Of a stretch of 40,756 bases of DNA, positions 4,091 to 33,529 are shown piece by piece; the stretch's first letter is position 1, and each line of letters starts with the position of its first letter. Under the pieces are notes generated by a model. The model had not been told where the DNA came from and searched no databases. It saw only the letters and a program-made list of their open reading frames with translations. The stretch is from positions 1 to 40,756 of the IMG/VR virus record IMGVR_UViG_3300046820_000157; one strand, written 5' to 3'. A program made the translations under genes and the position numbers. The stretch is from a virus.

Positions 4091-5014
4091 ATGAGTGTTA
4101 TTCAGTTAGACAGTCCGAACCATGTCATCAGTCTTGCGACATCGGCAGTCTTGGTCAATGCAGAAGTAAGCGTTTGGTCAGCGACTAAGCAAGATAGAGT
4201 TATCTCTAACGAGGTAACAACGGCTAAGAAAGCAGACCATTCAGCAGGGCGGTATGTAAAGAATCTCTTAGCTGACGACCCCACCCATAAGCAACTGCTC
4301 AATTATAGACAGACCGTTTATAACTGGCTTCGTAGGTCAACTTACGATTGGAATGGGTCATTGCGGTTGTTGCCTGTCGTGAATTTGCCAAAGTTCAAAA
4401 CAGAGTTTCAACACCATGAGAAGGCTTACTTTGCGTTGCGTGATGAGTTCTTGGCTAAGTATCCTACTATCGTAAGCAACATGGCTTTCAAGCAGGGAGA
4501 TATGTTTAATAGACAGGAGTATCCCGATGTGAACCAAATCAAGGACAAGTTCCGTATCAGGTTGTATGTGGCAGAAGTTCCACAGTCAGACTTTCGCTGT
4601 TCCATAGCGCAGGACTTGGCTGAAGACTTAAAAATTACATACCAAAAGCAAGTCAACGATGAGATTGTTCCACAGGTCATGGCTGATATTGCTAATCAGT
4701 TCATGGAGGTCATGGAGTCGATTAGTCATTGTTGCGGTGTTGACGAAATTAGCAGTTCAACGGATGGAGAAGTCAAGACCAAGAAACGGAAGATATATGA
4801 GACCACAGTCGATAAGGCTAAGGACTTGTGCGAGACCTTTAGGTCGTTCAATCTTACGAATGACGAAGAGTTAGCTAAAGCGTCTGTATCGTTGGAGAAA
4901 GTCTTAGGCGGTGTATCAGCAGAGGATATTCGAGAAAGCGATGCGGTGCGTGAAAGCGTGAAGAAGGGTGTCGATGACATTCTAATGAAGTTCGGTGCAT
5001 TTCAATCAATCTAA
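4091..5014 (+). CDS. DUF3150-like protein, 307 aa
   Basis: The N-terminal half resembles the DUF3150 family of phages and bacteria. It has a VSVWSA-type start of the conserved region, then an LRRSTYDWNG segment, LLPVVNLPKF, and a FLAKYP...DMFNRQEYP block near residues 125-155. Members of this family are typically encoded beside a MoxR/CobS-like ATPase and a VWA protein, exactly as here, so it is probably the third partner of that complex. The C-terminal half is helical and charged. The start follows GAGGTG, and the next gene begins 20 bases after the stop. The family assignment is from memory of its pattern. Biochemical function is unknown. Confidence 0.65.
   Translation: MSVIQLDSPNHVISLATSAVLVNAEVSVWSATKQDRVISNEVTTAKKADHSAGRYVKNLLADDPTHKQLLNYRQTVYNWLRRSTYDWNGSLRLLPVVNLPKFKTEFQHHEKAYFALRDEFLAKYPTIVSNMAFKQGDMFNRQEYPDVNQIKDKFRIRLYVAEVPQSDFRCSIAQDLAEDLKITYQKQVNDEIVPQVMADIANQFMEVMESISHCCGVDEISSSTDGEVKTKKRKIYETTVDKAKDLCETFRSFNLTNDEELAKASVSLEKVLGGVSAEDIRESDAVRESVKKGVDDILMKFGAFQSI
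4754..4772 (+). promoter_or_regulatory. AGTTCAAC-N7-GAA element, site 5 (inside a gene)
   Basis: AGTTCAAC-GGATGGA-GAAG lies within the DUF3150-like gene and encodes SSTDGE. The left half is perfect and the right half is reduced to GAA, as in the other in-gene copies. Confidence 0.5.
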
Positions 5015-5034
5015 ACCTAAACAGGGAGAATCAA

Positions 5035-6114
5035 ATGAAACTTAATCTAGTAGAAACTATGTCCATCAGCGAATTGCGTAAAGCGATTCCTATCATTGGT
5101 AAGAGTCTTACCCCAGTCATTATTAGTGAGCCAGGTGTCGGCAAGACTAGCCTCTTGAATATGTTAGAAGAGGATTTGGGGACAACCGAGTATGACTACA
5201 TATATGTGGACTGTCCTGTAAAAGATATGTCAGACATAGGTATGGTTATTCCTAACCATGAGACCAAGACCTTGGAATACTATGTCGCTAGTCTGTTCAA
5301 GCTAGGCAACGGCAAGAAGAAAGTCATCTGCCTTGACGAGTTGATGAAAGCCCCAAAGCTATTGCAGATTATCTTTACTCGCATGATGCTAGAAAGAATG
5401 GTAGGCGATGAGCCGTTACCCAAGGGGTCAATCATCTTTGCAACATCTAATAATGCAACAGATGGTGTCGGTGACTCTATGCTTGCCCATGCAGGGAATC
5501 GTGTGTGTAAGATTGAGATGGCTAAACCTAGCCCGAAAGAGTGGTTGTTGTGGGCATCGGAGAATGGAATCCATCGTTCGATTCGTTCTTGCGTAGCCAT
5601 GCACCCTAATTGGTTGGCATCTTATCGGAGTGGAGACCAAGACGAGAATACTGTAATCTTTAATCCAAAGAGAGCAGGGAATCAGTTCGTATCGCCTCGG
5701 TCATTAGCTAAGAGTTCAGTCATTGTTGAAAACAAAAACATCCTCGGTGAGAATGCCACGATGGTTGCTCTTGCAGGGACAATCGGTGTATCCGCCGCCA
5801 AACAGATGTCAGCGTTTTTATCGCTAGAGGAACAATTACCTGACTTCAAGGACATCTTGAAGAAGCCAGACGACATAGAAGTTCCCAAGGATATGTCAGC
5901 CCTTCTTATGATTATGTTTCAGGCGATAGACTTGTTAGAGACACAGGATGAGCTATCTAAGTTTATGAAGTTCGTGAAGAGAGTCGCTAGCGATGAGTGT
6001 CAGGCAATATTCTTTACGATGATTATGAGGGCTAAACGCACAGCCAAGATTGCTCGTAACAACGAGGAAATCAAGACATGGGCAGTAGCTAACCATGAGT
6101 TGTTTGGTGATTAA
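5035..6114 (+). CDS. MoxR/CobS-like AAA+ ATPase, 359 aa
   Basis: An ATP-driven remodelling enzyme of the MoxR/CobS branch of AAA+ proteins. Walker A is EPGVGKTS (about residues 33-40) and Walker B is VICLDE (about 97-102). A sensor-1-like ATSNN follows near residue 138, and the rest is a helical lid. In bacteria such ATPases work with a VWA-domain partner (RavA-ViaA, CobS-CobT). Here the VWA protein is the next gene and a DUF3150-like gene precedes it. The ATG follows AACAGGGAGAATCAA. The fold is clear. The client, possibly a host or virion metal-containing complex, is not known. Confidence 0.9.
   Translation: MKLNLVETMSISELRKAIPIIGKSLTPVIISEPGVGKTSLLNMLEEDLGTTEYDYIYVDCPVKDMSDIGMVIPNHETKTLEYYVASLFKLGNGKKKVICLDELMKAPKLLQIIFTRMMLERMVGDEPLPKGSIIFATSNNATDGVGDSMLAHAGNRVCKIEMAKPSPKEWLLWASENGIHRSIRSCVAMHPNWLASYRSGDQDENTVIFNPKRAGNQFVSPRSLAKSSVIVENKNILGENATMVALAGTIGVSAAKQMSAFLSLEEQLPDFKDILKKPDDIEVPKDMSALLMIMFQAIDLLETQDELSKFMKFVKRVASDECQAIFFTMIMRAKRTAKIARNNEEIKTWAVANHELFGD
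5713..5731 (+). promoter_or_regulatory. AGTTCAAC-N7-GAA element, site 6 (inside a gene)
   Basis: AGTTCAGT-CATTGTT-GAAA with TAAG in front lies inside the AAA+ gene and encodes KSSVIVE. It deviates at the left end (GT for AC) but keeps a good right half, GTTGAA. Confidence 0.45.
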
Positions 6115-6119
6115 TTAGT

Positions 6120-6138
6120 AGTTCAACACAGGGAGAAA
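6120..6138 (+). promoter_or_regulatory. AGTTCAAC-N7-GAA element, site 7, overlapping a binding site
   Basis: AGTTCAAC-ACAGGGA-GAAA lies between the AAA+ and VWA genes. The seven-base spacer contains the ribosome binding site ACAGGGAGA of the gene at 6143. The leader is almost identical to that at 8490-8508. Anything bound here, to DNA or RNA, could affect translation start. Confidence 0.5.
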
Positions 6139-6142
6139 CGGT

Positions 6143-7435
6143 ATGAGAACCGCAGAAGAAACACGCTTGAAGAAAGCGCATATTACTTTGATGCAACATC
6201 CAATGACTGCATTGTATTCGCAGATTATTGCATCAGGTAGAAATGAAGTAGTTGATGCCAAGGAACATGGTGGAATGTTTACCGCCTACACCGATGGCAT
6301 GAACAAGGTATATTGCAAGGAACACATCGCCGAGTATAAGTTGGAATCGGAGTTGCGAGGTGTGGTGTTGCATGAGAACCTTCATGTGGCATTGAAGCAG
6401 ATACCAAGACACCGAGACCTAAGCCATGACCATAAGATGCTTAATTATGCGATGGACTTCGTTGTCAATGATGTCATCAAGAATACTGTTGGCACAGTAG
6501 GACACAACAAAGAACCGTTGGTTACGCTTAACCCTAATTGGTTGTATCACCCAATGTTTCATAATTGGTCAGTCCGCAAGGTCTACGAGTATTTGAAGAA
6601 ACGCAAGGAGGAAATTGACAAGGCAGACCAAGACGGTAATCAGCCTCAGCCATGCCCTCAGCAAAACAACAGTTCAACGAATGATGAAAGCCAAAACGAG
6701 ACTGACATTGACGAGGCGCTACGCAATATGGACAAGGGTATGGATGACCACATATTCAAGGAAATCCAAGACATGACTGCCGAGGAGTTGAAGAAGTTGG
6801 AGGATGCGGTTGATAAAGCATTACGGCAGGGCGGTATGCTAGCAGGGCGGATGGGCGCATCTATCCCTCGTGTCATTGGAGATTTGCTTGAACCAAAGGT
6901 GGATTGGCGAGAGGTCTTTCGTGAGTTTGTTCAGTCAGCGATGCGTGGCAAGGATGAATACACATGGCGCAAGATGAACAAGTCTTATCTCGCTAATGAT
7001 ATGTATCTACCATCTATGCACTCTGAGACAATGGGTGAGTTGGTAGTTGCTATCGACACATCAGGCTCTATCAACAATGAGCAAATCTCTGAGTTTGCCT
7101 CAGAACTGGCATCCATCTGTGAAACTTGTAGCCCCGACAAGGTGCGAGTCTTGTGGTGGGATACCAAGGTGCATGGTGAGCAAATCTTTGAAGGTAACTA
7201 CAACGATATTGCCAAGATGCTCAAACCCCAAGGCGGTGGTGGCACTCATGTTGGTTGTGTCAGCGAATACATAATTAAGAGTTCAATCAATGCTGAAGCC
7301 TTGGTTATCTTTACCGATGGCTATGTGGAGAATAATCCTAAGTGGGAAGTAACGACTCCTACTATGTGGTTTGTTACACAGAACTCTAGCTTTGTTCCGC
7401 CCGCAGGTGGTCGTTGTGTTACGGTTGAGCAGTAA
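6143..7435 (+). CDS. metallopeptidase-like + VWA domain protein (DUF2201-type), 430 aa
   Basis: Partner protein of the AAA+ ATPase. The N-terminal part has the zinc-site motif HENLH (residues 77-81) of the putative metallopeptidase domain found in this family. A low-complexity, Gln/Asn/Asp-rich linker (about 165-195) follows. The C-terminal von Willebrand A domain has a complete metal-ion-dependent adhesion site: DTSGS at about 305, a Thr in GGGGTH near 370, and an Asp in FTDG near 393. This layout matches the CobT/ViaA-like partners of MoxR ATPases. The start follows CACAGGGAGAAACGGT. The domain calls are strong. Whether the peptidase site is active cannot be judged. Confidence 0.88.
   Translation: MRTAEETRLKKAHITLMQHPMTALYSQIIASGRNEVVDAKEHGGMFTAYTDGMNKVYCKEHIAEYKLESELRGVVLHENLHVALKQIPRHRDLSHDHKMLNYAMDFVVNDVIKNTVGTVGHNKEPLVTLNPNWLYHPMFHNWSVRKVYEYLKKRKEEIDKADQDGNQPQPCPQQNNSSTNDESQNETDIDEALRNMDKGMDDHIFKEIQDMTAEELKKLEDAVDKALRQGGMLAGRMGASIPRVIGDLLEPKVDWREVFREFVQSAMRGKDEYTWRKMNKSYLANDMYLPSMHSETMGELVVAIDTSGSINNEQISEFASELASICETCSPDKVRVLWWDTKVHGEQIFEGNYNDIAKMLKPQGGGGTHVGCVSEYIIKSSINAEALVIFTDGYVENNPKWEVTTPTMWFVTQNSSFVPPAGGRCVTVEQ
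6671..6689 (+). promoter_or_regulatory. AGTTCAAC-N7-GAA element, site 8 (inside a gene)
   Basis: AGTTCAAC-GAATGAT-GAAA encodes SSTNDE in the low-complexity linker of the VWA protein, a place where the amino-acid sequence is free to vary. Confidence 0.5.
7280..7298 (+). promoter_or_regulatory. AGTTCAAC-N7-GAA element, site 9 (inside a gene)
   Basis: AGTTCAAT-CAATGCT-GAAG preceded by TAATTAAG encodes IIKSSINAEA in the VWA domain. The flank TAATTAAG is the same as at site 11. Confidence 0.45.
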
Positions 7436-7461
7436 TTATATTAACTAACAGGGAGAAAACT

Positions 7462-8484
7462 ATGCCATATTTGACATACAAAGGGTTACAACATGTAACT
7501 CATACGCAAGACCCATTTAGGGGAACGATGAACTTCCCCATGTATAGCGACAGGAGACAACCGTATAGTCTCTTTCGGGTAGTCGAGACTGAGAACGATA
7601 TTGAATATCATGTCTGCTATGGCAGGGATTGGGAGAGTAAAGAAATCACTGAGCAAAAATATAATTTGCTCAAGGGTGTACGAGGTAAACGAGTCAGCAA
7701 GAAAGACAGGGACTATGAGCCTTATCCTTTCTATGAAACCATTGCCATACCAAGAGCCTTAGCTATCGTGCGGTCTGATAACACGATTGAGTTCGTTCGA
7801 GATAGTTATTGGCAAGGCGACAGGAAGAAAATGTCTGAGTGGATAAAATCAACTTGCTATATGTTTGACAGTTATCGGTATAGCGGTAATGGTCTGATGG
7901 TGTATGGGCAGAATAGTATGCCTATATTCAAAGGTCTGCGCTTAGACGCAGAAACTCTTAAGCCACACGAGTCTCAGAACATTCAAGTATTCCGCAAGGT
8001 CGTTGACCGTAAGAGAGCAAAGTCATTGATGGAGGGTTACAAGGACAAGCTAGATGTTGCCCATGCCATGCTGAAGTGTTTGGATATGGACACAATGATG
8101 GTATCAGCTAAAGATTTATTAGAAGAGCATGCCAGTAAACCCGATGAGAATAATTGGAAATACTTGGGGTCTGATGAAGCTATGCGAATCGGCGATAACT
8201 TACTCGAAAGCGGTTCAGAGTTTGAAGCATCATTGATGTATGCGATGGCAATAGGTGTGAACGGCTTTAGTGTATATGCGATTGAGAGATATGATAGTGG
8301 TGGGCATACAAGATACAACACTTGTGAGCCTAAGAATCTTGTGCCACGAATCAAGACTAGCTTGGCTAAGAAGGCGTATGAGACACACAAGCCATTCTAT
8401 GAGGTAGAAGTTCCTTTCATGAATACCAAGGGTAGTGAGTGGGGCCTACGAGTTGTATTAAACGGTGTGGATGTAGTTCGTTAA
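7462..8484 (+). CDS. hypothetical protein, 340 aa
   Basis: A soluble protein rich in Tyr, Arg and Asp with no motif I recognise. There is no signal peptide, membrane span, Walker motif or metal-binding cluster. The ATG follows CTAACAGGGAGAAAACT, a perfect 11-base match to the complement of the candidate small RNA loop. It follows the VWA gene by 26 bases and precedes a gene with a near-identical leader to that of the VWA gene. It is thus co-transcribed with the AAA+/VWA group and may act with it. That is inference from position only. Confidence 0.75.
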   Translation: MPYLTYKGLQHVTHTQDPFRGTMNFPMYSDRRQPYSLFRVVETENDIEYHVCYGRDWESKEITEQKYNLLKGVRGKRVSKKDRDYEPYPFYETIAIPRALAIVRSDNTIEFVRDSYWQGDRKKMSEWIKSTCYMFDSYRYSGNGLMVYGQNSMPIFKGLRLDAETLKPHESQNIQVFRKVVDRKRAKSLMEGYKDKLDVAHAMLKCLDMDTMMVSAKDLLEEHASKPDENNWKYLGSDEAMRIGDNLLESGSEFEASLMYAMAIGVNGFSVYAIERYDSGGHTRYNTCEPKNLVPRIKTSLAKKAYETHKPFYEVEVPFMNTKGSEWGLRVVLNGVDVVR

Positions 8485-8489
8485 TCAGT

Positions 8490-8508
8490 AGTTCAACACA
8501 GGGAGAAG
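8490..8508 (+). promoter_or_regulatory. AGTTCAAC-N7-GAA element, site 10, overlapping a binding site
   Basis: AGTTCAAC-ACAGGGA-GAAG, just after the stop of the 340-residue gene. The spacer carries the binding site for the ATG at 8513. It matches the leader at 6120-6138 almost base for base, including the upstream TTAAT and AGT. Confidence 0.5.
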
Positions 8509-8512
8509 TAGT

Positions 8513-9454
8513 ATGTTAAGTAATATCTTATTCCATGCAGTAGCAGATGATTCATTGAAAGAGAATGTAGCGCAGAGCAAAGTATTGCCTCTCATTCGTG
8601 AACTCAATCATATCTATGGCTTAAAAGTATATGCAGAGTCAGGCGACTTTCGTTTCGGTAGCGGTGGCGGTAATGCAGATAACTTTATGCTATGCGATGA
8701 AGTACAAGGCTTTCCTGTTGGTCGTGTGTTTGTGTATGAAGATAACTTTTGCTATCACACACCGTATAGTTCAAAGCAACGAGGGACTGATGACTTTGAT
8801 AGACACACCTTCCGTAGCAAAAAACTATCGTCATTGATAGCATCGCTAAAGAAAGTAGGCATTCTTACCAAAGGAGAACAGATAATTGAACAGCTTGATG
8901 AGGCTATGAATGGGGCAGTTCGCCCTATATATACATCATTCAATGTTGACAGAAAAAATAATATTACTGGAGACCATGCACATGAAATACTTTTAGCGTT
9001 ACAAAGCGGTAAGACACTTAGCGACTTACCACAGGGTAGTAGGGATTTATACCTAAAGTATATTGACGACTATACCAAAGTTGACATACAGTTAGAAACT
9101 AGAAAACAGGGAATACATGAAATGACGGATAACTGCTATGTCGTGGGTGCAGACAGAAAAGGTCACTACCTAGTTGCTGATGGAGGTTGTGAAGTTATGC
9201 AATCTAATGGGGTTGAATTTTATAAGTTAGATTACAAAAGTCCATTCAAGCGTGTTAGTTCTTTGAAGGAGTATCCCGATATATTGTCTTGCCTAACAAT
9301 GACTAAGGTGCATCTTGACGATAAGTTCAGACCTTGGTCAGATAAATCTTTAGCACCGTATGGAGACAAATACATCCCTGAGTTAGGTATTAGTTACGGT
9401 TATAGAAACAACAACACCGACTTTGATATGGAGTGGCTATGCATATCCAAATAA
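8513..9454 (+). CDS. hypothetical protein, 313 aa
   Basis: A soluble, mixed alpha/beta-looking protein with a glycine-rich stretch (FGSGGGNADN, about residues 47-57) and many Asp and Tyr residues. I do not recognise a family. The start is set by ACAGGGAGAAG five bases upstream. Its end overlaps the next gene by 16 bases. It belongs to the same transcription unit as the AAA+/VWA genes. Confidence 0.72.
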   Translation: MLSNILFHAVADDSLKENVAQSKVLPLIRELNHIYGLKVYAESGDFRFGSGGGNADNFMLCDEVQGFPVGRVFVYEDNFCYHTPYSSKQRGTDDFDRHTFRSKKLSSLIASLKKVGILTKGEQIIEQLDEAMNGAVRPIYTSFNVDRKNNITGDHAHEILLALQSGKTLSDLPQGSRDLYLKYIDDYTKVDIQLETRKQGIHEMTDNCYVVGADRKGHYLVADGGCEVMQSNGVEFYKLDYKSPFKRVSSLKEYPDILSCLTMTKVHLDDKFRPWSDKSLAPYGDKYIPELGISYGYRNNNTDFDMEWLCISK

Positions 9455-9801
9455 GCGACTTAGTTCCGTTAGTGCATCCATATAACTGGTCTCTTTATCG
9501 TGTGCCATTAAGGAAAGTCAATGACGATTACTATGTTTATTTGGGCAATGGTATTGTTAGAATTTTTACTTCTGATACTTTGCCTGATTGTATTAAGGGT
9601 AAGATGGCAATGATACTTGCGTCATCTAGCGTTAACTTATACAGAGACCACGATAGGTCTTTCGGAGTATGTGAACTAATGAATAATTATCCTTCAGATG
9701 TGTTAGATACTGGTTGGCGAGGTAGCGATACATTCTTTGTAGTTGTAATAGAACGGCAAGATTTGGATTCAATGGTTGGTGAAGTATTAAATAAGGAGTA
9801 G
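9439..9801 (+). CDS. hypothetical protein, 120 aa
   Basis: Starts inside the end of the previous gene. I prefer the ATG at 9439 (MHIQISDLVPLV...), five bases after GGAG. A GTG two codons earlier is also in frame but would overlap that binding site. The protein has alternating hydrophobic residues suggesting beta strands, and no recognisable motif. It is the last of three unrecognised genes after the VWA gene. Confidence 0.68.
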   Translation: MHIQISDLVPLVHPYNWSLYRVPLRKVNDDYYVYLGNGIVRIFTSDTLPDCIKGKMAMILASSSVNLYRDHDRSFGVCELMNNYPSDVLDTGWRGSDTFFVVVIERQDLDSMVGEVLNKE

Positions 9802-9803
9802 TT

Positions 9804-10106
9804 ATGGCAGTAACACCTGAGTCAAAAGTTAAAACAAAGATAAAGAGAACCTTAGATTCTATGGGGGCATACTTTATTCAGCCAGTAGGGACAGGCTTTG
9901 GCTCTAGCGGTGCGCCTGATATTGTCGCTTGCTATAAAGGATTCTTTATTGGTATTGAAGCAAAAGCAGGGAAAGGCAAGACAACTGCTTTGCAAGAACT
10001 TAATCTTGCTAAGATAAAGATGATGGGTGGTCTTGCGTTAGTTATTAATGAGATGAATGTCTCAGAGTTAAGACAGTTAATTGAAACTTGGTTAAAGGAG
10101 AAATAG
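9804..10106 (+). CDS. VRR-NUC domain nuclease, 100 aa
   Basis: A small single-domain nuclease of the VRR-NUC branch of the PD-(D/E)xK fold. Members cleave branched or single-stranded DNA and are frequent in phage replication regions. The catalytic pattern is clear: GSSGAPDIV (Asp near residue 37), then FIGIEAKAGKG (Glu and Lys, about 49-55), then TALQELNL with the conserved Gln. The length is typical of the phage stand-alone form. AAGGAG lies just before the ATG, and it follows the previous gene by two bases. It may process replication intermediates together with the polymerase and helicases further on. Confidence 0.88.
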   Translation: MAVTPESKVKTKIKRTLDSMGAYFIQPVGTGFGSSGAPDIVACYKGFFIGIEAKAGKGKTTALQELNLAKIKMMGGLALVINEMNVSELRQLIETWLKEK

Positions 10107-15409: not shown

Positions 15410-16987
15410 ATGGAAATAGTAGATAACACAGCAGTTCGCTTTACGCTCCCAACAGACCTTGTGCCAAGCGTAATAAACAACATAGAAAAAAGCGAACTTG
15501 TAGAGACCAAGGGAAATCTCTCAGAAGTTTTAGTTTATTGGGGTATAGAAGAACTAACCCTACTTAATAGGCTAATCAAGTTTAATAAACCCCTCCCCTC
15601 CCCCATAAGTGCTAACTACAATTGGCCTGGACTGTATAAGCCTTTCGATCACCAAAGAGTTACTTCAGCGTTCCTATCCATTAACATGCGGGCGTTCTGC
15701 TTTAACGAAGCAGGGACAGGTAAAACATCATCTGTTATTTGGGCTGCTGACTACTTAATGAATCAAAAGCACATCAAAAAAGTTTTAGTAATATGCCCTC
15801 TATCAATTATGTATTCAGCATGGCAAGCAGACATTTTCAAAACTGCAATGCATAGACGAGTTGCTGTAGCGTATGGTAGTCCAGACAAGCGTAAAAAGAT
15901 TCTTAACGGAGACTACGAGTTCATCGTTATAAATTACGATGGAGTAAACATTGTATTCAATGAGTTAGAAAAAATAGGGTTTGACCTGATAGTAATAGAT
16001 GAAGCAAACGCTTATAAAAATGTTACGACTAAAAGATGGAAAGCATTAGCTAAATTGATGAAACCAACCACGAGGTTGTGGATGTTAACAGGGACACCCG
16101 CCTCACAATCACCAGTAGATGCATTTGGTATAGCCAAACTTGTATCACCACAAAACGTTCCACGCACATTGACTGTGTGGAAAGATAAAGTTATGACTCA
16201 ACTGTCACGCTTTAGGTGGATTCCAAAACATGATGCAAAGCAAAAAGTATTTGATGCACTGCAACCAGCAATTCGCTTCACAAAAAACGAGTGTTTAGAC
16301 TTGCCTGATTTAATGTATCAGACACGGGAAGTACCGCTATCACCACAAGCACTACGCTACTACAATGATTTAAAAAAGAATATGCTTATCCAAGCAGCGG
16401 GTGAACAAATCACCACAGTAAATGCTGCAACAAATTTAAATAAACTATTGCAATTATCAGGAGGGGCAGTATATACTGATGAAAGGGAGGTAGTTGAGTT
16501 CGACATAGCACCACGCAAGAACGCACTGCTAGAAGTTATCGAAGAAACAGAACACAAGCTAATTATTTTTGTACCGTATAGACACACTATACAGTTAGTT
16601 TGTAAGTTCTTAACAGAGGAGGGAATCACAAACGAAGTTATCAATGGAGATGTGCCTGCAAAAGAGCGCAGTCTAATCATTAACAGATTTCAAGAATCAG
16701 ACAACCCAAGAATACTTGTAATACAACCGCAAGCTGCGAGTCATGGAGTAACGCTTACAGCTGCAAATACTGTAGTGTTTTGGTCTCCTGTTACTAGTGT
16801 TGAAACATACTTACAATGTATCGCTCGCATTGATAGGGTAGGTCAAAAGAACAAGATGACAGTAGTGCATTTACAAGGTTCTCCAGTTGAAAGAAGGATG
16901 TACGAAGTGTTGCAAAATAAAGTAGATATGCATGAAAAATTAGTTGATTTATATAAGTCAGAACTCGGTATAGGAGAAAACAAATGA
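15410..16987 (+). CDS. SNF2/DEAD-like superfamily 2 helicase, 525 aa
   Basis: A DNA-dependent ATPase of the SNF2-type branch of superfamily 2. Motif I is NEAGTGKTSS (about residues 102-111), motif II is VIDEAN (about 193-198) in place of DEAH, and motif III is LTGTPA (about 225-230). The C-terminal half has FVPYRHT (IV), VIQPQAASHGVTLTAA (V) and YLQCIARIDRVGQ (VI). Phage members of this group act in replication or recombination-dependent fork handling. The ATG follows TTAAGGAAAAT. It is preceded by the hairpin/terminator element at 15311-15390, which may control it, and ends in an ATGA overlap with the next gene. Confidence 0.93.
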   Translation: MEIVDNTAVRFTLPTDLVPSVINNIEKSELVETKGNLSEVLVYWGIEELTLLNRLIKFNKPLPSPISANYNWPGLYKPFDHQRVTSAFLSINMRAFCFNEAGTGKTSSVIWAADYLMNQKHIKKVLVICPLSIMYSAWQADIFKTAMHRRVAVAYGSPDKRKKILNGDYEFIVINYDGVNIVFNELEKIGFDLIVIDEANAYKNVTTKRWKALAKLMKPTTRLWMLTGTPASQSPVDAFGIAKLVSPQNVPRTLTVWKDKVMTQLSRFRWIPKHDAKQKVFDALQPAIRFTKNECLDLPDLMYQTREVPLSPQALRYYNDLKKNMLIQAAGEQITTVNAATNLNKLLQLSGGAVYTDEREVVEFDIAPRKNALLEVIEETEHKLIIFVPYRHTIQLVCKFLTEEGITNEVINGDVPAKERSLIINRFQESDNPRILVIQPQAASHGVTLTAANTVVFWSPVTSVETYLQCIARIDRVGQKNKMTVVHLQGSPVERRMYEVLQNKVDMHEKLVDLYKSELGIGENK

Positions 16988-17382
16988 ACACCGATCAGTT
17001 AGTAGAAACATTTATTACGCTAAGGAATGAGCGTGACCGTTTGCGTAATGAGTGGGAAGCAAAAGATAGTGTAGTAAAAGAAGAGATGGCTAAGCTTGAA
17101 CAGGCTTTGTTATCTATCTGCAACGAAACAAATGCGACAAGTATCAAGACAGATAAAGGTACTGTGATTCGCAAATTAACCGAACGTTACTTCTGTACGG
17201 ATTGGGAACACTTTAGAGACTATGTGCTTGAACACCAAGCCTTAGAACTTCTAGAGCGCCGTATCCATCAAGGTAATTTCAAAGAATTCATCACTGAGAG
17301 ACAAGACGAAGGTCTACCTCCTGGTGTGAATGTTATGCGTGAGTTTGGTGTTACTGTGCGTAAACCAACAAGCGTTTCCTAA
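16984..17382 (+). CDS. hypothetical coiled-coil protein, 132 aa
   Basis: The first 55 residues (LRNERDRLRNEWEAKDSVVK and on) form a coiled coil. A beta/alpha segment follows, with KTDKGTVIRKLTERY and DWEHFRDYV, and a conserved-looking end PPGVNVMREFGVTVRKP. Proteins of this shape often stand beside phage helicase and ssDNA-binding genes, as here, and are annotated as hypothetical. Translation is coupled to the helicase gene by overlap. A helper role in replication is inferred. Confidence 0.72.
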   Translation: MNTDQLVETFITLRNERDRLRNEWEAKDSVVKEEMAKLEQALLSICNETNATSIKTDKGTVIRKLTERYFCTDWEHFRDYVLEHQALELLERRIHQGNFKEFITERQDEGLPPGVNVMREFGVTVRKPTSVS

Positions 17383-21542: not shown

Positions 21543-21726
21543 GCCAATCTGGTTGTTTCCGTTTGACGGCATGGAGGTCGGGGATAGCTTTTTTATCCCC
21601 ACTCTAAAGTCTGCCGAGGCTATCTACTCAGCCGTTGAAGCCTCTAAAAAACATAACCTAAGAGTCAAAGCCTTTGCCGCTATGAAAGACGGCATCATGG
21701 GTGTTCGTGTATGGCGGGTTAATTAA
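21520..21726 (+). CDS. hypothetical protein, 68 aa
   Basis: MSNNLFSEPIWLFPFDGMEV begins inside the end of the primase-helicase gene. An in-frame earlier start at 21454 is deeper inside that gene. The second half (SAEAIYSAVEASKKHNLRVK, then GIMGVRVWRVN) looks like a compact alpha/beta module of a type seen in small phage proteins. The stop lies within TTAATTAA, which also provides the stop of the opposite-strand gene. Confidence 0.7.
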   Translation: MSNNLFSEPIWLFPFDGMEVGDSFFIPTLKSAEAIYSAVEASKKHNLRVKAFAAMKDGIMGVRVWRVN

Positions 21727-24700
21727 GGTCGTCGTAGGCTTTAAAGACTTCAATCAAATGCCGTTTGATTAGATTCTGTTGCTCTTTAATGTTATCTAGC
21801 AACTCTTTACGTTCTTTAATAGTAAGATCAGGCATAGCACGGTATCTATTAGCTAACTCCCGTGCTTTCTTTAAATCTCCATTAACACCTTTGTTGTACA
21901 TGTCTACAAGCCCTTGGTCGTATGGATTCTCGGCTATGTACTCCATATAGCGTTCTGGGTCGTTCTTAAACATATTTAGCTTACGCTCTTTGTCTTTAAT
22001 CATGTTCTCCATCTTAGAGAACTCACGAGCATCAAAGTTAGACTTAGCGCCAAAGAACATATCAAACGCTAAAGTATCTGTCTTAGGATTGAAATCTTTC
22101 TGCATAGTGCCTACCATGCCGATGTTGTAAGAGTTGTGTATAAGACGAGTCAAACCATCAGCGTAGTTGTTAGCAAAGAAGTACATGGTGTTTGGACTCC
22201 AATCTATCCCACCATTTGTAATGTTTGCAAGCAATTTGGCGGCATCTTTGTATAGCTCAGGGATGCTGTCCCCACCTGTATAGGCGTCTCCGCTGCGTGT
22301 TTGACGGTTGTTATAAATCTCTCTACCTAAACCGTCTAGGTTCATCGCATACTCAAAGAAGGGGCGGAATAACGAAGGTGTCACGCTATCCATAGCCCAA
22401 GCTGCTGGGTTTTCCCACATATTAATTCTTGATGCTGGGAGTGGTAGGAATGCATCAAACCCAACGTCTTTAATATTATTAAATGTATCTTTTATTGAAT
22501 TATTTCCTGACCCAAAAGCCATAATTTGCGCACCAGCAGACGCAAAAGCGCCAAGACCAAAGCCCCAAGGAATTTGGAATATTATGTCTGTGCCTGGAAT
22601 ATGGAACCGTGCATAGCGTGTCCAACGAGCCATATCATCTATAGCCACTTTGTTTCGCCCATCCTCATCATCCTCTGCTAACATGGAAGCCATCAGATAA
22701 ATAACTGACCCTGCTCCAAGTAAAGACATAAACATAGCCGCTGCAGACCGTCTTTGTGCAATCATGTTTTCACGGAATTTAGCAACAGCTTCAGGGTCAT
22801 TACGCACTGCTTCTGGCAGCCCAGCCAAAGCTGTGTCAATATTGCGGAACAACGGAACAAGTGACTCAATAGCTCTAACTGCACCCGTAGCAGATGGGCG
22901 GAAGAACATAAAGATTGCGCCTAAACTCTTACCCCACTGACCCACTTGCTCAAAATTAGCTAGATTTTTAACATATGCAGTTGCCTTAACCTGTGCTTCC
23001 CGTTCTGAAAGCTTTTCAGGACCGTTCATCAAGTTTTCTTTAACTACTTGATATGCTGCGGTGCGGCTAGCAAATTCAAACATGTTAGTCCAAATATCAA
23101 TCACACCGTCTATTTCAGCTTTGGTAGTAGCTATACCTTTGCGCCCTAGAGTTTTCTGCATTTGCTCAAACTGGCTCTTAGCACCTATACCTGATACATA
23201 AGATACTTTTCCACCCTGCTGGATGTATTCGTACATAGCTTTGACGTATGGGTCTGTCTTAGCAAGTTTTTCAATTTCATCAAACTTGCCATTTTTATAT
23301 AGTCTAGATACTTTAAAGGCTCTGAATAAACCACCTTGAGCTACCTTAGACGCTACCGCACCCACCGTGCCTACACCCATCTCAGCACCCATAGTAAAGG
23401 CATTAGTCAAAGTATCACGAATGAAGTTCATTGGTGCAAACGCTACGTTATAGCGGGTATGGAACTGCCCCATCAAGCTGGTAGTATTGTTTAGAGCATC
23501 AAGCAAAGGTTGAGAACCACGATAGCTACGGCGAACAGCCTCACGAATCTTGGGGTTGTCGATAGCGTATATCTCTATCGAACCGTCTGGGTTGTAGTGG
23601 AAGAAAGTATTTTCCCCTCTAGTAAGAACCTCATCGTCTGCAACCTTATAACGGTCTTCAAACTTAACTGTCTTTAACTTTCTACCTTCTAATAGTTTCT
23701 TATCTATAGCATTTTTAATTGCTAAAGTAATACCGTACTGTTCTGTAGTTCCGTCAGGATTGGTATATGTACCGCCCCGCCCAGCCCGCAATGCAGAGCG
23801 CACTCCGTCAGATAAAGTTTGGAGAAGTGGGTTTTCAGACTCGGACACACGACCATCAAATGCAGATTCTTTTTCTTGCAACTCACTACCGTTAGATTTA
23901 CTGCTAAAGTCTAGTAACTCATCAACTCTAGACTCTTTTTCTTTCCTATCTGGTCTGCCTTTTAACGGTACATAGTTATCAAAACCATAAAAAGCTACGA
24001 TGTTGCTGACGGGCTGCGACCAATAGTTAGCCTTTCTATTAAGCTCTATAGTGGCTTTGTGAACAGTCTGTAGAGCATCTCTAATTGGGTCTATAAGCGC
24101 CTTGTCTGGCTCGTAATACTTAGCAATTGTTTCTTCACGTATTTCAGGGCGAATACCTGCTACGTTATAAAAGTCAGAGTTCTCATCTAAAGAGAAGTCA
24201 GAAGGTTCGGCATTAAAACCGTAACCCTTTTCCTGTTTATTGTTAGCTACTAAAGTTTCTATATAGCTTCGTAGTTGTTCAATAGTTTCTTTGCTTAGAT
24301 TAGCATTTGACCTTATTTGTTTTAAAATGTTTTCTCGTGTCTGCGCTGCTTCAGCAGTTAGGGGTACGCTTAGTAGATATTTAACGTGGCGACGCTCTTG
24401 TTCGTGCAGCGCAACAAATATACCGTGTAGCTGTTTTAATGCAGTTTCTTCATCTATATTTTTTGCTTTTGCATACTCACCAATAGTTTTGTATAACTCA
24501 TTAGACGGGTTATACATGTTGACAAGGAATTCATCTTCGGCACGTCCAGTAGACAATGAAATCTGGGTATATACAGCAGTTGTATCATCACCAGAATAAG
24601 TCATTTTATTAGCTGTAGATAATAAGTCTTCCCAGTTTTTAATAGGGTAGCGTTCGTTTTGGAATAATCTTACTAACTCTTTAGCGCCTTCTACGCTAGT

Positions 24701-27487
24701 AAAAGCTTTTCTTACCTTTGAAGATGTTGGTTCTGGCTGTCCAGATATAGACGATATAAAGTCTTCTGCTGATTTAAATTCACGCAGTTCAGGTTTTAGA
24801 GTTTCTTTTGGTGCTTTACCTTCTGCTACAGGAGCAAGGGCTGCCGTTGCTGGGGGTGGGTTTGTAGCCTCTAATGTACGACCCTCAGTCAAAATACTTT
24901 CTGTAGACACTAATGCGTAAGCCAGGGCTGTGAAGTCTTTACCTGGAGCGATACCAAGTAAATTTAAGATGTCTTTAACAAACTCAACAAAAGCATTAAT
25001 TACAATGTTGCCACGCTCGTATGGAAGAGCATTTAATTGCTCTTGGAATTCAGGATTAGACATAGCCTCAGAGACAAACTCTGCAAGGTTCTTCATGCCG
25101 TACTTGTCTTTTAATTCTGGATAAGTCTCTTTTAAGTGGTTGTATAACTTCTCAAGGTTGGCAACGCCCTGATTAAACTTAACACCATCTTTGTGTGCTT
25201 TGATAATAGCTAGGGTAAACCCGTGCAGTGTTTCGTGCAGTACAACATGTGAAGTCATAGCATCTTCACTAATGTAGGCTATATCTGTAGCTGCATCGTA
25301 TTGCCCTAATTTGCCGCCAAGTTCACTAGTTGTTACCACACGTAGAGTAGGCAAGGTGTCTGACTCTAATAAGCGTTTAGCTACTATCTTATCTAGTTTA
25401 GTAAATTGACCAGAAGTATCACCAGCTATTTCTTGCAAAGCACCACGCAAATCGCCGTGCATTAGGTTGGACATAAGCCCAATCGTAGTGCCACCACGCA
25501 ATCCCTCTATAGCCTCTAAGTTGGCAGAACCGTAAGAAGGAATAGCTCTAAGCTCAGCCATTCTCTCTTCTATTAAAGACATCTTCTTAGGCACGGGAGG
25601 TTTACCAGCAACTTCTTTAGCTTCGGCTTTTTCTGCTTTAACTATTTTTTTGTATTCTTTTGGCGTGTAAACAACGCCTGGAATTACTTTACTTTTACGC
25701 TGAAGCATAGGCTTAGCTTCTTTAAACTCCAGCAAAGATTTATATTTTGCTACGGCGGTATCTACCATAGCCTTTTCTTCTGGAGTTAAAGCATTGTATC
25801 TATCAGCTGTTTTACCAGCAATTACATCAGTCGCTGCCTCTTTAACGTTCTTAACAGATTGTTTAGTTTTAACAACTTCTTCATCAGTAGGTTGTGCTGC
25901 TTTTAACTTTTGTTCTTCCCGTGCAGCAATAGCTTTAGGATATAAATCTTCTTCAGTTACTCTAGGTTCAATAAACCTTCTTTCTGTTCCTGAAGTAAAT
26001 GCAGATTCACCCATAAAAGGTTTTGGTGCAGGTGCTTGGTCTACTGCAGCTTGGTCTACTGCAGCTTGGTCTACTGCAGCTTTTTCTAATGCACGCTGCT
26101 GTTCCGCATCTCCAGCTCCAGCCTGCTCTGTAGTACCTCCAGCGTCAGCCATTCCAGATCGCTCAGATGCTGCAGATTTTGCGGCGGCTCTATCTGTTTC
26201 GGGTCCGCTAAGTACTTCAGCGCCAACTCCACCTCCTGTAACGTCAGTTCTGTCAGCAACATCTTGACCTCCTTTTACGTCAAACGTTTCTTCTTCGGCT
26301 TTTTTAGTCTTGCCCTCTGCTTTAGCTATAATTTCATCAGCAGTTAAATCTACTTGTGCGGGGGCCGCGGCTGGTGTTTCTGCTTCTGTTGCTGGTGTAA
26401 CTGCGCTAGGCTCTGTAGGGGTTACAGGTGCTGGAGCTTGTTTTTGCCCAAATGGAATATTAGCCACCCCACTAATTGCACCGCCACCAATACCACCTTT
26501 AAGCCCTGCGTTAATGAATCGCTCAAAATTCTTTTCAGTGAAGAACTGTTTATTGTTGTCTACAAACTTCTCAGCCGCAGCTGACGACATCTCTTGGACT
26601 GCTTCCGTTGCGCCTTCTGTCGCAAAGCCTGTTAATACACCCTTACCTGCCCGTTTGTACCAAGCACCAATAAGTTCTTTCTCAGTAAGACCAATACCTT
26701 TAGCCTTGCGTAATAACGCTATAGGGGTGATTGCATCTAGTACGGAGTTAAAGCCACCAAACAGAAGCGCAGCGCCAAGGTCTTCTTTGCCTGTTTCTTC
26801 AGCAACATTCTGATAAACCTCAGGTACGTTTTGTATAGCTGAGCCACCCACTGCGCCCACCGCTTGGTATTTAAGCGCCGTTCTTTTAGCTGCATCTACG
26901 CCAGCTTGAGTAGCTAGGTCTTTAATTTCTTTCTCGGTTAGCCCTTTAGCCGCCCCAGCTGCCGCCGCTTTTTCTGCCGCTTGCTTAGCCGCTACGACTG
27001 CGCCACGCCCAACAACACCTGCGGCACCGCCTGTAAAGATAGATGGAAGAATAGACGGAATTAACTCGCCGACTGACTCAACCACATAGGTTAAGAAGTC
27101 CCCACCACTCTTAATATCTGTATAGCTAGGTACAGCTGACGGATACATTTGCTGTATGTATTGCTGTGCTTCTTGGGCTTCCTGCATCTGCTTAGTAGCG
27201 TAATCGCCCGCACCCTGTACCCCTAGCTTCTCACCAACGCGCCCAGCCATAGCTGGTAGTACGTCCCCTACAAGCGACTGGAGACCCAGCGCACCACGTT
27301 TAACGGCGGGAATAAATGAACTGATACCAGTTGCTGGTTCAGGTTTGTACTCAGGAGTGGGTTCTTTAGGCGCATCGTTAAGATATGCTTGTTGGGCAAA
27401 GGCAAAAATGGCTCTTTCTGAAGTACCCTCTGGTGCTTCAACGTCATAGATTTTGCCGTTAGGCGCCTCAACACTATAGATTGGCAT
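21719..27487 (-). CDS. giant polyvalent ejection-type protein with metallopeptidase site and LPD38-like end, 1922 aa
   Basis: The largest gene and last of the leftward virion block. N-terminus: short beta module (MPIYSVEAPNGKIYDVEAPE), then a hydrophobic region (GELIPSILPSIFTGGAAGVV, about 137-156) and Ala-rich helices. Residues about 345-520 are low complexity (Pro/Thr/Ala, with AVDQA repeats). HVVLHETLHGF near 749 is a gluzincin-type HExxH zinc site. The C-terminal 550 residues resemble the large polyvalent protein domain LPD38, with MGQFHTRYNVAFAPMNFIRD near 1339, hydrophobic AAMFMSLLGAGSVIYLM near 1590 and SPNTMYFFANNYADG. Such proteins are carried in virions and injected with the DNA. 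The HExxH could cut host proteins on entry. It overlaps its + strand neighbour by eight bases. Confidence 0.8.
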   Translation of the reverse strand: MPIYSVEAPNGKIYDVEAPEGTSERAIFAFAQQAYLNDAPKEPTPEYKPEPATGISSFIPAVKRGALGLQSLVGDVLPAMAGRVGEKLGVQGAGDYATKQMQEAQEAQQYIQQMYPSAVPSYTDIKSGGDFLTYVVESVGELIPSILPSIFTGGAAGVVGRGAVVAAKQAAEKAAAAGAAKGLTEKEIKDLATQAGVDAAKRTALKYQAVGAVGGSAIQNVPEVYQNVAEETGKEDLGAALLFGGFNSVLDAITPIALLRKAKGIGLTEKELIGAWYKRAGKGVLTGFATEGATEAVQEMSSAAAEKFVDNNKQFFTEKNFERFINAGLKGGIGGGAISGVANIPFGQKQAPAPVTPTEPSAVTPATEAETPAAAPAQVDLTADEIIAKAEGKTKKAEEETFDVKGGQDVADRTDVTGGGVGAEVLSGPETDRAAAKSAASERSGMADAGGTTEQAGAGDAEQQRALEKAAVDQAAVDQAAVDQAPAPKPFMGESAFTSGTERRFIEPRVTEEDLYPKAIAAREEQKLKAAQPTDEEVVKTKQSVKNVKEAATDVIAGKTADRYNALTPEEKAMVDTAVAKYKSLLEFKEAKPMLQRKSKVIPGVVYTPKEYKKIVKAEKAEAKEVAGKPPVPKKMSLIEERMAELRAIPSYGSANLEAIEGLRGGTTIGLMSNLMHGDLRGALQEIAGDTSGQFTKLDKIVAKRLLESDTLPTLRVVTTSELGGKLGQYDAATDIAYISEDAMTSHVVLHETLHGFTLAIIKAHKDGVKFNQGVANLEKLYNHLKETYPELKDKYGMKNLAEFVSEAMSNPEFQEQLNALPYERGNIVINAFVEFVKDILNLLGIAPGKDFTALAYALVSTESILTEGRTLEATNPPPATAALAPVAEGKAPKETLKPELREFKSAEDFISSISGQPEPTSSKVRKAFTSVEGAKELVRLFQNERYPIKNWEDLLSTANKMTYSGDDTTAVYTQISLSTGRAEDEFLVNMYNPSNELYKTIGEYAKAKNIDEETALKQLHGIFVALHEQERRHVKYLLSVPLTAEAAQTRENILKQIRSNANLSKETIEQLRSYIETLVANNKQEKGYGFNAEPSDFSLDENSDFYNVAGIRPEIREETIAKYYEPDKALIDPIRDALQTVHKATIELNRKANYWSQPVSNIVAFYGFDNYVPLKGRPDRKEKESRVDELLDFSSKSNGSELQEKESAFDGRVSESENPLLQTLSDGVRSALRAGRGGTYTNPDGTTEQYGITLAIKNAIDKKLLEGRKLKTVKFEDRYKVADDEVLTRGENTFFHYNPDGSIEIYAIDNPKIREAVRRSYRGSQPLLDALNNTTSLMGQFHTRYNVAFAPMNFIRDTLTNAFTMGAEMGVGTVGAVASKVAQGGLFRAFKVSRLYKNGKFDEIEKLAKTDPYVKAMYEYIQQGGKVSYVSGIGAKSQFEQMQKTLGRKGIATTKAEIDGVIDIWTNMFEFASRTAAYQVVKENLMNGPEKLSEREAQVKATAYVKNLANFEQVGQWGKSLGAIFMFFRPSATGAVRAIESLVPLFRNIDTALAGLPEAVRNDPEAVAKFRENMIAQRRSAAAMFMSLLGAGSVIYLMASMLAEDDEDGRNKVAIDDMARWTRYARFHIPGTDIIFQIPWGFGLGAFASAGAQIMAFGSGNNSIKDTFNNIKDVGFDAFLPLPASRINMWENPAAWAMDSVTPSLFRPFFEYAMNLDGLGREIYNNRQTRSGDAYTGGDSIPELYKDAAKLLANITNGGIDWSPNTMYFFANNYADGLTRLIHNSYNIGMVGTMQKDFNPKTDTLAFDMFFGAKSNFDAREFSKMENMIKDKERKLNMFKNDPERYMEYIAENPYDQGLVDMYNKGVNGDLKKARELANRYRAMPDLTIKERKELLDNIKEQQNLIKRHLIEVFKAYDDLN
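26034..26093 (-). repeat. 15-base tandem repeat, three exact copies plus one degenerate
   Basis: On the + strand the unit GCTTGGTCTACTGCA stands three times in a row (26034-26078), then a diverged copy GCTTTTTCTAATGCA. On the coding strand this gives ALEKA followed by AVDQA three times. In-frame units point to recent slippage in a flexible linker. Confidence 0.9.
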
Positions 27488-32167: not shown

Positions 32168-33529
32168 TTAGTCCGTCAAATCATAGTAAGACAACGACCC
32201 AATAATGTCGTCTGAGCCTGAAATAGTGCGGGCAGCAAGGGTGTAAATATCACTTGTACCACCAAGACTTACCCCAAGTTGTAAATCAAAGTTATATTCG
32301 GTAGAGCCTGTTCCTGTACCACTCCCTTGATTGCTACCTGAGACATAGGTCAAATCTGTGATTGTCCCACCAGTCAAAGCGGTTGCCGTTACGTCATATT
32401 CTACATTGGTAGAATTACTGGTAAAAGAAGCACCTGTTAATGTTGGGTTTTTAATTAAAGCAACCTCATAGTCCAAGACAGAGCCGATTGGCAAAGCATT
32501 AAAAATAGAAGGTAAAACTACCGCACCTAAAGCAGTACTTTTTAGTTGGATAGAAACCAATGGTTTAAAGGTCGTAGTTGCTGCCAAAACAGTAGTACGC
32601 CTAGCCCAAGCTAAAGCTGACTTTTGTTCGTATCCGCCTTCAGAAATAACGGTAGAGCATATTTGTTTCATGGTGGCGCTAGTCGTTGTGGACACGGACT
32701 CAATCTCATATCGAACGGGCAATATAGCCGTGGTCATATAGACTTTATTTAAGTCATTAGCGTTATTAAAGGTATGACAAATAATGATCTGCCCATCAAT
32801 AACAAAGCCACAACGCACCGAACCAACCCCTAACCACTCAAAGTCCATATACAGAATCTGAGCTTTAGTCGGATCTAAGGTAAACCCAGACGCTCCCGTA
32901 CCGTCTAGTTTGTCGCCATTCCAATCTGCTTGGTTTACAGTTCTAGCGTCACTGGGCGTTCCAGAAGTATTGGTGCGAAGCACAAAAGACTTAGTCGTAC
33001 CATAAACCTGAAAGAAAAGACCATTATCGGTATTAAAATATCCTACCCGCTGACGTAAGTTTGTTTGGGCTGCCGCCATAACAAAAGTAGCAAATACCTC
33101 AAGACTCTTGCCAGGCTGATAAGGGAAAACCCTATATGTTTGACGCACCGCCTTAGACCCAGCCGTAGTATCAGCAGATAGTAATACAGTAGAAGCGTTC
33201 CCATCATAAGTAATTGATGCCCCATTAGCAGTACTTTGGCTAAATTGCGGGTCGGCTTGGTAGCGGTTTTGGCTATCAAATAAAGTAAATGGCGAGCTAG
33301 TTCTTAGCCTTCCAAAGGCATCAACTGTAGCGCCACCAAAGGCTACGTAGGTTGGGTCAGTTATGGTTCCACTCATATTAATACAAGCACTTAGCTCCGC
33401 TAAATAGTTATCCAACCGATTAAAGTACAGGCGTAGGGCATACTGAAATTGGTCTTGTTGTTTTTGGTCATAGTCTGGGGTCGCTAAAGGTAGTGCGGGC
33501 GCCTTTATGTTGTATGGTGTGCAATCCAT
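32168..33529 (-). CDS. putative virion structural protein, beta-rich, 453 aa
   Basis: A soluble, Thr/Ser/Gly-rich, beta-strand-heavy protein. SSPFTLFDSQNRY near residue 77 and the following GASITYDGNASTVLLS, TAGSKAVRQTYRVFPYQPGKS segments form a pattern I know from phage structural proteins. No enzymatic motif is evident. It could be a tail or decoration component. Its start overlaps the stop of the upstream gene by one base (TAATG), so the two are co-translated. Confidence 0.72.
   Translation of the reverse strand: MDCTPYNIKAPALPLATPDYDQKQQDQFQYALRLYFNRLDNYLAELSACINMSGTITDPTYVAFGGATVDAFGRLRTSSPFTLFDSQNRYQADPQFSQSTANGASITYDGNASTVLLSADTTAGSKAVRQTYRVFPYQPGKSLEVFATFVMAAAQTNLRQRVGYFNTDNGLFFQVYGTTKSFVLRTNTSGTPSDARTVNQADWNGDKLDGTGASGFTLDPTKAQILYMDFEWLGVGSVRCGFVIDGQIIICHTFNNANDLNKVYMTTAILPVRYEIESVSTTTSATMKQICSTVISEGGYEQKSALAWARRTTVLAATTTFKPLVSIQLKSTALGAVVLPSIFNALPIGSVLDYEVALIKNPTLTGASFTSNSTNVEYDVTATALTGGTITDLTYVSGSNQGSGTGTGSTEYNFDLQLGVSLGGTSDIYTLAARTISGSDDIIGSLSYYDLTD

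Follow-up and report, generated by a model that had tools for sequence, protein, structure and literature searches.

Why does a virus carry a MoxR-type ATPase beside a metallopeptidase fused to a VWA domain? The pair of AAA and VWA-metallopeptidase genes recurs across phage records; here it stands, together with a DUF3150-like gene, at positions 4091-7435 (+ strand) of the IMG/VR virus record IMGVR_UViG_3300046820_000157. The window analysed is that entire record, which comes from environmental DNA (40,756 bases, classed as linear); it may be a fragment, possibly leaving capsid, portal and packaging genes beyond its ends. Our tentative answer, to which we give slightly less than an even chance, is that the trio is an ATP-driven MoxR-VWA remodelling and proteolysis machine that is made with the replication genes and works intracellularly, not as a virion-assembly factor. 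It is preferred over virion assembly because plasmids carry the trio and because phage DSL-LC04 shares tail and ejection proteins with the window without having the trio. The AAA/VWA pair in phages was already known; the third subunit and the lineage-specific, fast-diverging companions are what is added here, and no description of them was found in the literature searched. Genes are named below by the first position of their open reading frame (ORF). The trio consists of three ORFs, as first described, with the following features (aa, amino acids; MIDAS, metal ion-dependent adhesion site):

4091..5014, + strand: DUF3150-like protein, 307 aa, proposed third subunit of the trio (sub-threshold PF11348 score and clean-profile matches)
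5035..6114, + strand: MoxR-clade AAA+ ATPase by its sequence, 359 aa (PHROG_1297, 1.1e-53; midasin, 1.1e-29; invariant motifs)
5125-5148, + strand: Walker A of 5035
about 5320-5343, + strand: Walker B of 5035
6143..7435, + strand: zincin-like metallopeptidase and VWA fusion, 430 aa (PF13203, 1e-23; PF09967, 1.4e-18; PHROG_1314, 8.9e-83)
6371..6385, + strand: HENLH zinc motif, residues 77-81 of 6143 (invariant, 42/42)
6443-6457, + strand: putative third-ligand region N101/D105 of 6143 (invariant, 42/42)
7055..7069, + strand: MIDAS motif DTSGS, residues 305-309 of 6143, the site being completed by T368 and D392 (invariant, 42/42)

The two halves of 6143 both passed the curated Pfam thresholds, with 84.8 bits for PF13203 (DUF2201_N, putative metallopeptidase; cut-off 23.2) and 67.6 bits for PF09967 (VWA-like DUF2201; cut-off 26.4). 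Across 42 aligned relatives, 31 from the window-phage lineage and 11 from other phages and plasmids, the residues H77, E78, H81, N101, D105, D305, S307, S309, T368 and D392 were invariant, bearing out the original prediction of a VWA protein with an intact adhesion site and an HENLH motif. The zincin is predicted to be active because its catalytic Glu is conserved. Equally, the AAA+ protein 5035 proved to be complete, with intact Walker A and B: P33, G34, G36, K37, D101, N139, R156 and R222 were invariant in all 32 aligned sequences and E102 was present in at least 90%, so that the Walker A/B, sensor 1 and arginine-finger residues expected of a ring-forming AAA+ are all there. The P-loop reads SEPGVGKT, in which Ser replaces the textbook first Gly, likewise in gp24 of coliphage N4. 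Against solved structures the 5035 profile matched midasin best (1.1e-29) and Clp proteins next (1.5e-10), and on this profile evidence 5035 is placed in the MoxR clade of AAA+, nearest midasin/MoxR. The ratio of nonsynonymous to synonymous substitution rates (dN/dS) among the three closest genomes was 0.02-0.04 for the AAA and 0.10-0.16 for the VWA gene.

The third protein, 4091, scored only 14.7 bits against Pfam DUF3150 (PF11348; cut-off 24.9). A profile built from 29 members of the window-phage lineage, with no outside sequence included, nevertheless matched the DUF3150-position proteins encoded by phage MinM2 (1.2e-20) and by plasmids (1.5e-18 to 1.3e-36; Cupriavidus 1.5e-18), and no relation to the true DUF3150 protein ORF102 of pCAR1 was detected (hhalign 0.8%). 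The wording 'DUF3150-like' used in the original prediction is thus the right one for a protein that lies below the Pfam cut-off and whose lineage profile finds DUF3150-position proteins.

A side observation concerns the annotation of the 6143 family: under PHROG_1314 and in many RefSeq phage records, this zincin-VWA family (6143, N4 gp25 and relatives) is named 'HNH endonuclease'. The label looks wrong, and propagated, because Pfam and the motifs point to a metallopeptidase-VWA protein.

The cellular counterparts named in the original prediction include metal-inserting complexes, and the trio might accordingly be a chaperone of the chelatase, CbbQO or NorQD type that inserts metal into, or activates, a host metalloenzyme. 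The general AAA-VWA plan is alike, and 6143 receives 14.1 bits from the BchD-ChlD model, but this score is far under the NCBIfam cut-off of 499.55, no chelatase model reached its cut-off, and the scan of window genes showed no recognisable chelatase or CbbO-like partner. The conserved zincin of 6143 is also unlike those systems, which are not known to contain one. Metal insertion is therefore unsupported and we regard it as very improbable.

The trio is not phage-specific, since Burkholderiales and Rhodovastum plasmids and bacterial loci carry it too. In tblastn searches the VWA protein matched 735 of 50,697 phage records and the AAA protein 508, all below 60% identity, and 73 further contigs beyond the window encode the VWA protein. 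Among 72,556 plasmid records, 42 were matched by the MinM2 DUF3150 query and 57 by the VWA query. As in the window, all three families are adjacent on Cupriavidus pRK1-1, on one Rhodovastum plasmid and in the bacterial contigs retrieved with the Cupriavidus DUF3150 query (10/10, these ten being close relatives of each other); the order on these plasmids and Cupriavidus-type contigs is AAA-DUF3150-VWA, whereas that of the window is DUF3150-AAA-VWA. Linkage is loose on a Simplicispira plasmid, with the AAA gene about 3.6 kb off, and Synechocystis pSYSA has AAA and VWA with no DUF3150 within the stretch read. An equivalent trio is formed by ORF101-103 of pCAR1, comprising a MoxR/CbbQ ATPase, a true DUF3150 protein (8.3e-92) and a VWA protein whose N-terminal part bears the motif HECSH, although its AAA and VWA proteins belong to other subfamilies than those of the window (weak or no profile match). 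The parts of PMC2642839 available describe the pCAR1 genes as conserved in R478, Rts1, SXT and R391, with host-dependent transcription of the operon and a suggested link to conjugative transfer. The complex described as phage-borne is thus indeed present in a phage but is not peculiar to phages. Because plasmids and bacterial loci are elements without virions, this distribution supports an intracellular role; the trio on plasmids argues that its job lies inside the host cell and can be studied there.

As a separate observation, the pCAR1 VWA gene (15527-17341), annotated as NorD, carries HECSH beside the true DUF3150 gene, and the zincin-VWA plan may extend, judging from this motif, to the pCAR1/SXT type.

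The layout of the window points in the same direction. Downstream of 10106 the + strand continues with a block of PolA, exonuclease, helicase and DUF927 primase genes up to 21542, while the long ORFs matching tail, ejection and lysis proteins occupy the - strand between 40415 and 21719. Of 38 eligible loci, 31 have PolA downstream and in the same orientation. The intracellular machine is supported by the placement of the structural genes on the opposite strand, by the downstream PolA, by the invariance of the catalytic and MIDAS residues across phages and plasmids, by the low dN/dS of AAA and VWA and by the kinship of the AAA protein with midasin. Beyond the lineage, phage DSL-LC04 has relatives of the window's 453-, 623-, 551- and 312-aa tail and ejection proteins (2e-134, 9e-116, 3.5e-21 and 6.7e-16), whereas no AAA, VWA or DUF3150-like protein was detected in it. 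Conversely, the cultured Rhizobium phage RHph_TM3_14A has the replication block in common with the window and, just upstream of PolA, encodes an AAA and a metallopeptidase-VWA protein (MN988472, 1621-8541). Three primase contigs were also inspected; two have the VWA gene and the third stops short of the expected cassette position. The full-length 453-aa protein occurred in 0/22 contigs with the cassette (picked by length out of 75), with short N-terminal matches in 8, and 20 contigs with the 453-aa protein (picked by length from 80, most of them fragments) gave a strong VWA match in 1 and a weak or partial one in 1.

These observations bear on a role in virion assembly or maturation, in which the pair would remodel and clip structural proteins. 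Such a role, together with structural-protein processing, is proposed in the available parts of PMC7824862 for group 2.2 jumbo phages, where, to go by that description, a MoxR ATPase likewise adjoins a vWA protein with an N-terminal metallopeptidase; the same parts mention no DUF3150-like partner or fast-evolving followers. Acidianus two-tailed virus p618/p892 is a second viral pair of MoxR ATPase and VWA co-chaperone, in which p618 is a virion component that binds the VWA protein p892 (PMC4124505, as far as the text was available); it differs from the window in its extracellular tail development and in having no peptidase domain on the VWA protein (PMC7824862, available parts). The original prediction held that what a phage does with such a complex was not established; a virion-assembly role had already been proposed for the AAA/VWA pair. 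The trio on plasmids and in bacterial loci, its absence from the DSL-LC04 search despite related tail and ejection proteins, and its position in the replication block on the strand opposite to the structural genes all speak against virion assembly, which we consider unlikely.

Several points weigh against the intracellular machine as well. Among the 22 contigs, the primase was present in 22/22, but so was the 1922-aa ejection-type protein (22/22, with the 623-aa protein in 13/22 and the 312-aa protein in 16/22), which also counts in favour of virion assembly. Because the cassette keeps structural and replication blocks alike, co-occurrence inside the lineage cannot separate the roles, and the argument that the cassette follows the replication block and not the virion block within the lineage was dropped in favour of evidence solely from outside phages and plasmids. 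There, the DSL-LC04 and RHph_TM3_14A comparisons rest on one phage each, and Pseudomonas phage Rollin shares the replication block while no AAA or VWA was found in it, so that replication does not need AAA/VWA. Experiments on any close member were not found in the literature searched.

The intracellular machine sets out from what is directly observed at the locus, namely gene content, motif conservation, linkage and an operon-like layout. In it, 5035 would form a ring, the VWA domain of 6143 would capture a substrate peptide through its MIDAS metal site, ATP hydrolysis would alter the conformation of the bound substrate, and the zincin domain fused to the VWA domain would then probably cleave it, with 4091 as the presumptive third subunit. 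Peptide capture followed by restructuring through ATP hydrolysis is described for characterised MoxR-vWA pairs in the available parts of PMC7159879. The machine would be co-produced with the early and replication genes, and its substrate inside the infected cell would be a host protein or a DNA-metabolism complex of phage or host, and not the virion.

Closer parallels in phages show how much of the window's arrangement is shared. N4 gp24 and gp25 (PHROG_1297 and PHROG_1314) are of the same families as 5035 and 6143 (phmmer 1.8e-13 and 1e-25) and have the same motifs; they are listed as AAA superfamily and vWFA superfamily, function unknown, in the available part of PMC2784036. N4 and LIT1 are unlike the window in that neither a DUF3150-like protein nor relatives of 8513, 7462 and 9433 were detectable. 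PHROG labels had suggested that the window phage is itself N4-like (Schitoviridae); this was rejected, as only gp24, gp25 and PolA (1.5e-6) matched among 25 N4 protein pieces, and the N4 RNA polymerases (gp15, gp16, gp50) and structural proteins had no match in the window. Coliphage N4 and the cultured RHph_TM3_14A are ready test beds for the pair.

What might aim the machine is suggested by the genes that follow the trio:

7462..8484, + strand: orphan protein, 340 aa, accessory (optional in the lineage; AlphaFold2 (AF2) model, no PDB match)
8513..9454, + strand: orphan protein, 313 aa, always present beside the trio in this lineage and diverging fast (hhalign and synteny; AF2 model, no PDB match)
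9433..9801, + strand: orphan protein, 122 aa from GTG (present in 64/74 loci)
9804..10106, + strand: VRR-NUC/Hjc-like nuclease, 100 aa, opening the DNA-metabolism block (PHROG_93, 2.2e-14; PF01870, 0.00086)

The third of these had been given a start at 9439, where there is an in-frame ATG, although the ORF is listed from the GTG at 9433. From 4091 to 10106 the gaps between genes are 20, 28, 26, 28, -16 and 2 bases, so short that one operon is plausible, as had been proposed for the trio and its three followers. Moreover, the ribosome-binding leader ACAGGGAGAA occurs in four exact copies, at 5021, 6128, 7448 and 8498 (span 5021..8507, + strand), each directly preceding 5035, 6143, 7462 or 8513; 0.08 copies were expected in the window, and 0/100 shuffles reached four. 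The same leader stands ahead of the AAA, VWA, 7462 and 8513 genes in the related contigs L007 and L009 and is absent from L010 and from the farther relatives examined. This hints, at the level of sequence, that synthesis of the four proteins is matched in this subgroup, and the identical leader supports the intracellular machine. The 25-base stretches 6113-6137 (before 6143) and 8483-8507 (before 8513) differ by one mismatch, and this repeat is a possible recombination site inside the operon.

Across the lineage the order is fixed as 4091, AAA, VWA, (7462), 8513, 9433, nuclease. Gene 7462 was missing from 23 of the 64 loci that hold both VWA and 9433 (window counted); 20 of these 23 also lacked a direct 8513 match, and in 20/20 a 310-411-aa ORF occupied the 8513 slot. 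A profile of 12 such slot ORFs matched the 8513 profile over 296 columns (hhalign 98.9%, 3.5e-17), and two still more divergent slot ORFs join 8513 via that 12-member profile (98.2% and 95.9%). In these synteny counts, L001 (part of the window) and L005/L006 (identical with contigs L007/L009) are included. Scanning in reverse, with one group each of 8513 and 7462, returned 19 loci on 17 distinct contigs, all 17 of which have the VWA gene, 15 of them being already known through VWA and 2 being new. On the slot survey and the reverse scans, 8513 is constant and 7462 optional within the lineage. The nuclease 9804 is a conserved neighbour, and 9433 directly precedes it wherever both are present.

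Outside the lineage the picture differs. No relative of 7462, 8513 or 9433 turned up in RHph_TM3_14A or in the stretches examined from N4, LIT1, MinM2, CRP-7, At2 and pVa5. The genes in the slot after VWA of RHph_TM3_14A (where an unrelated 257-aa gene fills it), MinM2 and CRP-7 have no detectable kinship to the window's downstream genes, and no 8513/7462/9433-like gene is evident in the annotated plasmid stretches, judged by annotation and not by profile search. The prediction that the downstream genes travel with the trio thus stands inside the lineage and fails in every other trio or pair carrier examined, for which reason we regard 7462, 8513 and 9433 as lineage-specific neighbours, possibly partners, and not as part of a universal system. 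They may even be mere syntenic neighbours in a collinear early block, physically unlinked to the trio, a view that comes close to an even chance: they were undetected in the other carriers tested, 7462 is missing from the 23 loci above, and the nuclease gene is equally syntenic. Set against this, the 8513 slot is never empty where sequenced, 7462 and 8513 were not found apart from the trio (17/17 contigs, just 2 new), and in the three closest genomes the leader before both is that of AAA and VWA. Under the intracellular machine, 8513, and often 7462, would be the leading candidates for an adaptor or client that determines the target in this lineage.

The companions diverge far faster than the trio. 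Median identities were 0.54 for 4091, 0.61 for AAA, 0.59 for VWA and 0.53 for the nuclease versus 0.25 for 7462, 0.21 for 8513 and 0.30 for 9433 (569 pairs at VWA identity <0.95, drawn from 35 loci that have all seven genes, L001-L006 left out). Among the three closest genomes the dN/dS of 7462 and 8513 was 0.20-0.32, with dS elevated as well; being below 1, it does not demonstrate positive selection, and the divergence is, from these comparisons, attributable to weaker constraint plus allele exchange. The nuclease allele of L009 has likewise been exchanged (dS above 0.8). No match to 8513 or 7462 was found in Pfam, NCBIfam, PADLOC, PHROGs or INPHARED, nor any relation between the two (hhalign 0.1%). 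Their AF2 models are confident, with a predicted local distance difference test score (pLDDT) of 90.4 and a predicted template-modelling score (pTM) of 0.85 for 8513, and 87.2 and 0.76 for 7462. No fold match was obtained in PDB (lowest Foldseek E 0.17 for 8513; highest VIA-align Z 4.0 for 8513 and 2.5 for 7462), a lack of solved counterparts that, for predicted models, does not prove new folds; the BFVD matches were function-less viral proteins, A0A516LPG7 for 8513 (3.5e-16, template-modelling score 0.66) and A0A6J5QYP6 for 7462 (5.8e-7).

Such fast-diverging companions point to possible carriers of the machine's specificity, and they also raise a further explanation, that the trio is a phage version of the MoxR-vWA-peptidase counter-invader systems, turned on host defence or rival elements, with 8513 and 7462 as fast-changing recognition subunits. 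The plan is the same, MoxR plus a peptidase-vWA fusion plus a rapidly evolving further component (PMC12839542 and PMC7159879, available parts), although the resemblance to these ternary conflict systems is one of plan only; 8513, 7462 and 9433 diverge much faster than the trio, and the trio is also carried by plasmids, which face the same host defences. On the other side, there was no meaningful PADLOC match and no NCBIfam model at cut-off, and the third component of the conflict systems (VMAP, FtsH or iSTAND) found no counterpart in 7462 or 8513 by Pfam, PADLOC or PDB fold. No STAND-like or other PDB match was obtained for their models, which decides nothing either way, and with dN/dS at 0.20-0.32 and raised dS, allele exchange explains part of the divergence. 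We hold a conflict machine to be doubtful, somewhat less so than virion assembly, and it is the alternative left beside the remodelling of a host complex or a replication complex. Its more specific form, in which the MoxR/zincin-VWA/DUF3150 machine shared by phages and plasmids is a counter-defence or inter-element weapon and, in this lineage, 8513/7462 are exchangeable recognition subunits of new fold set against changing host proteins, appears improbable on present evidence.

Two structural proteins of the window deserve mention in their own right. The 1922-aa protein (21719-27487, - strand) carries the label 'virion RNA polymerase' through PHROG_2206, which was not accepted, as it had no polymerase match in PDB and an LPD38 domain in Pfam, located at its C-terminus. 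The 453-aa structural protein (32168-33529, - strand) has its nearest annotated relative in phage DSL-LC04 (55.8%). In each of the 22 contigs with the cassette it is replaced, while 8 of them have in common with it an N-terminal piece of 34-64 residues, a pattern suggestive of a modular tail protein whose anchor is conserved.

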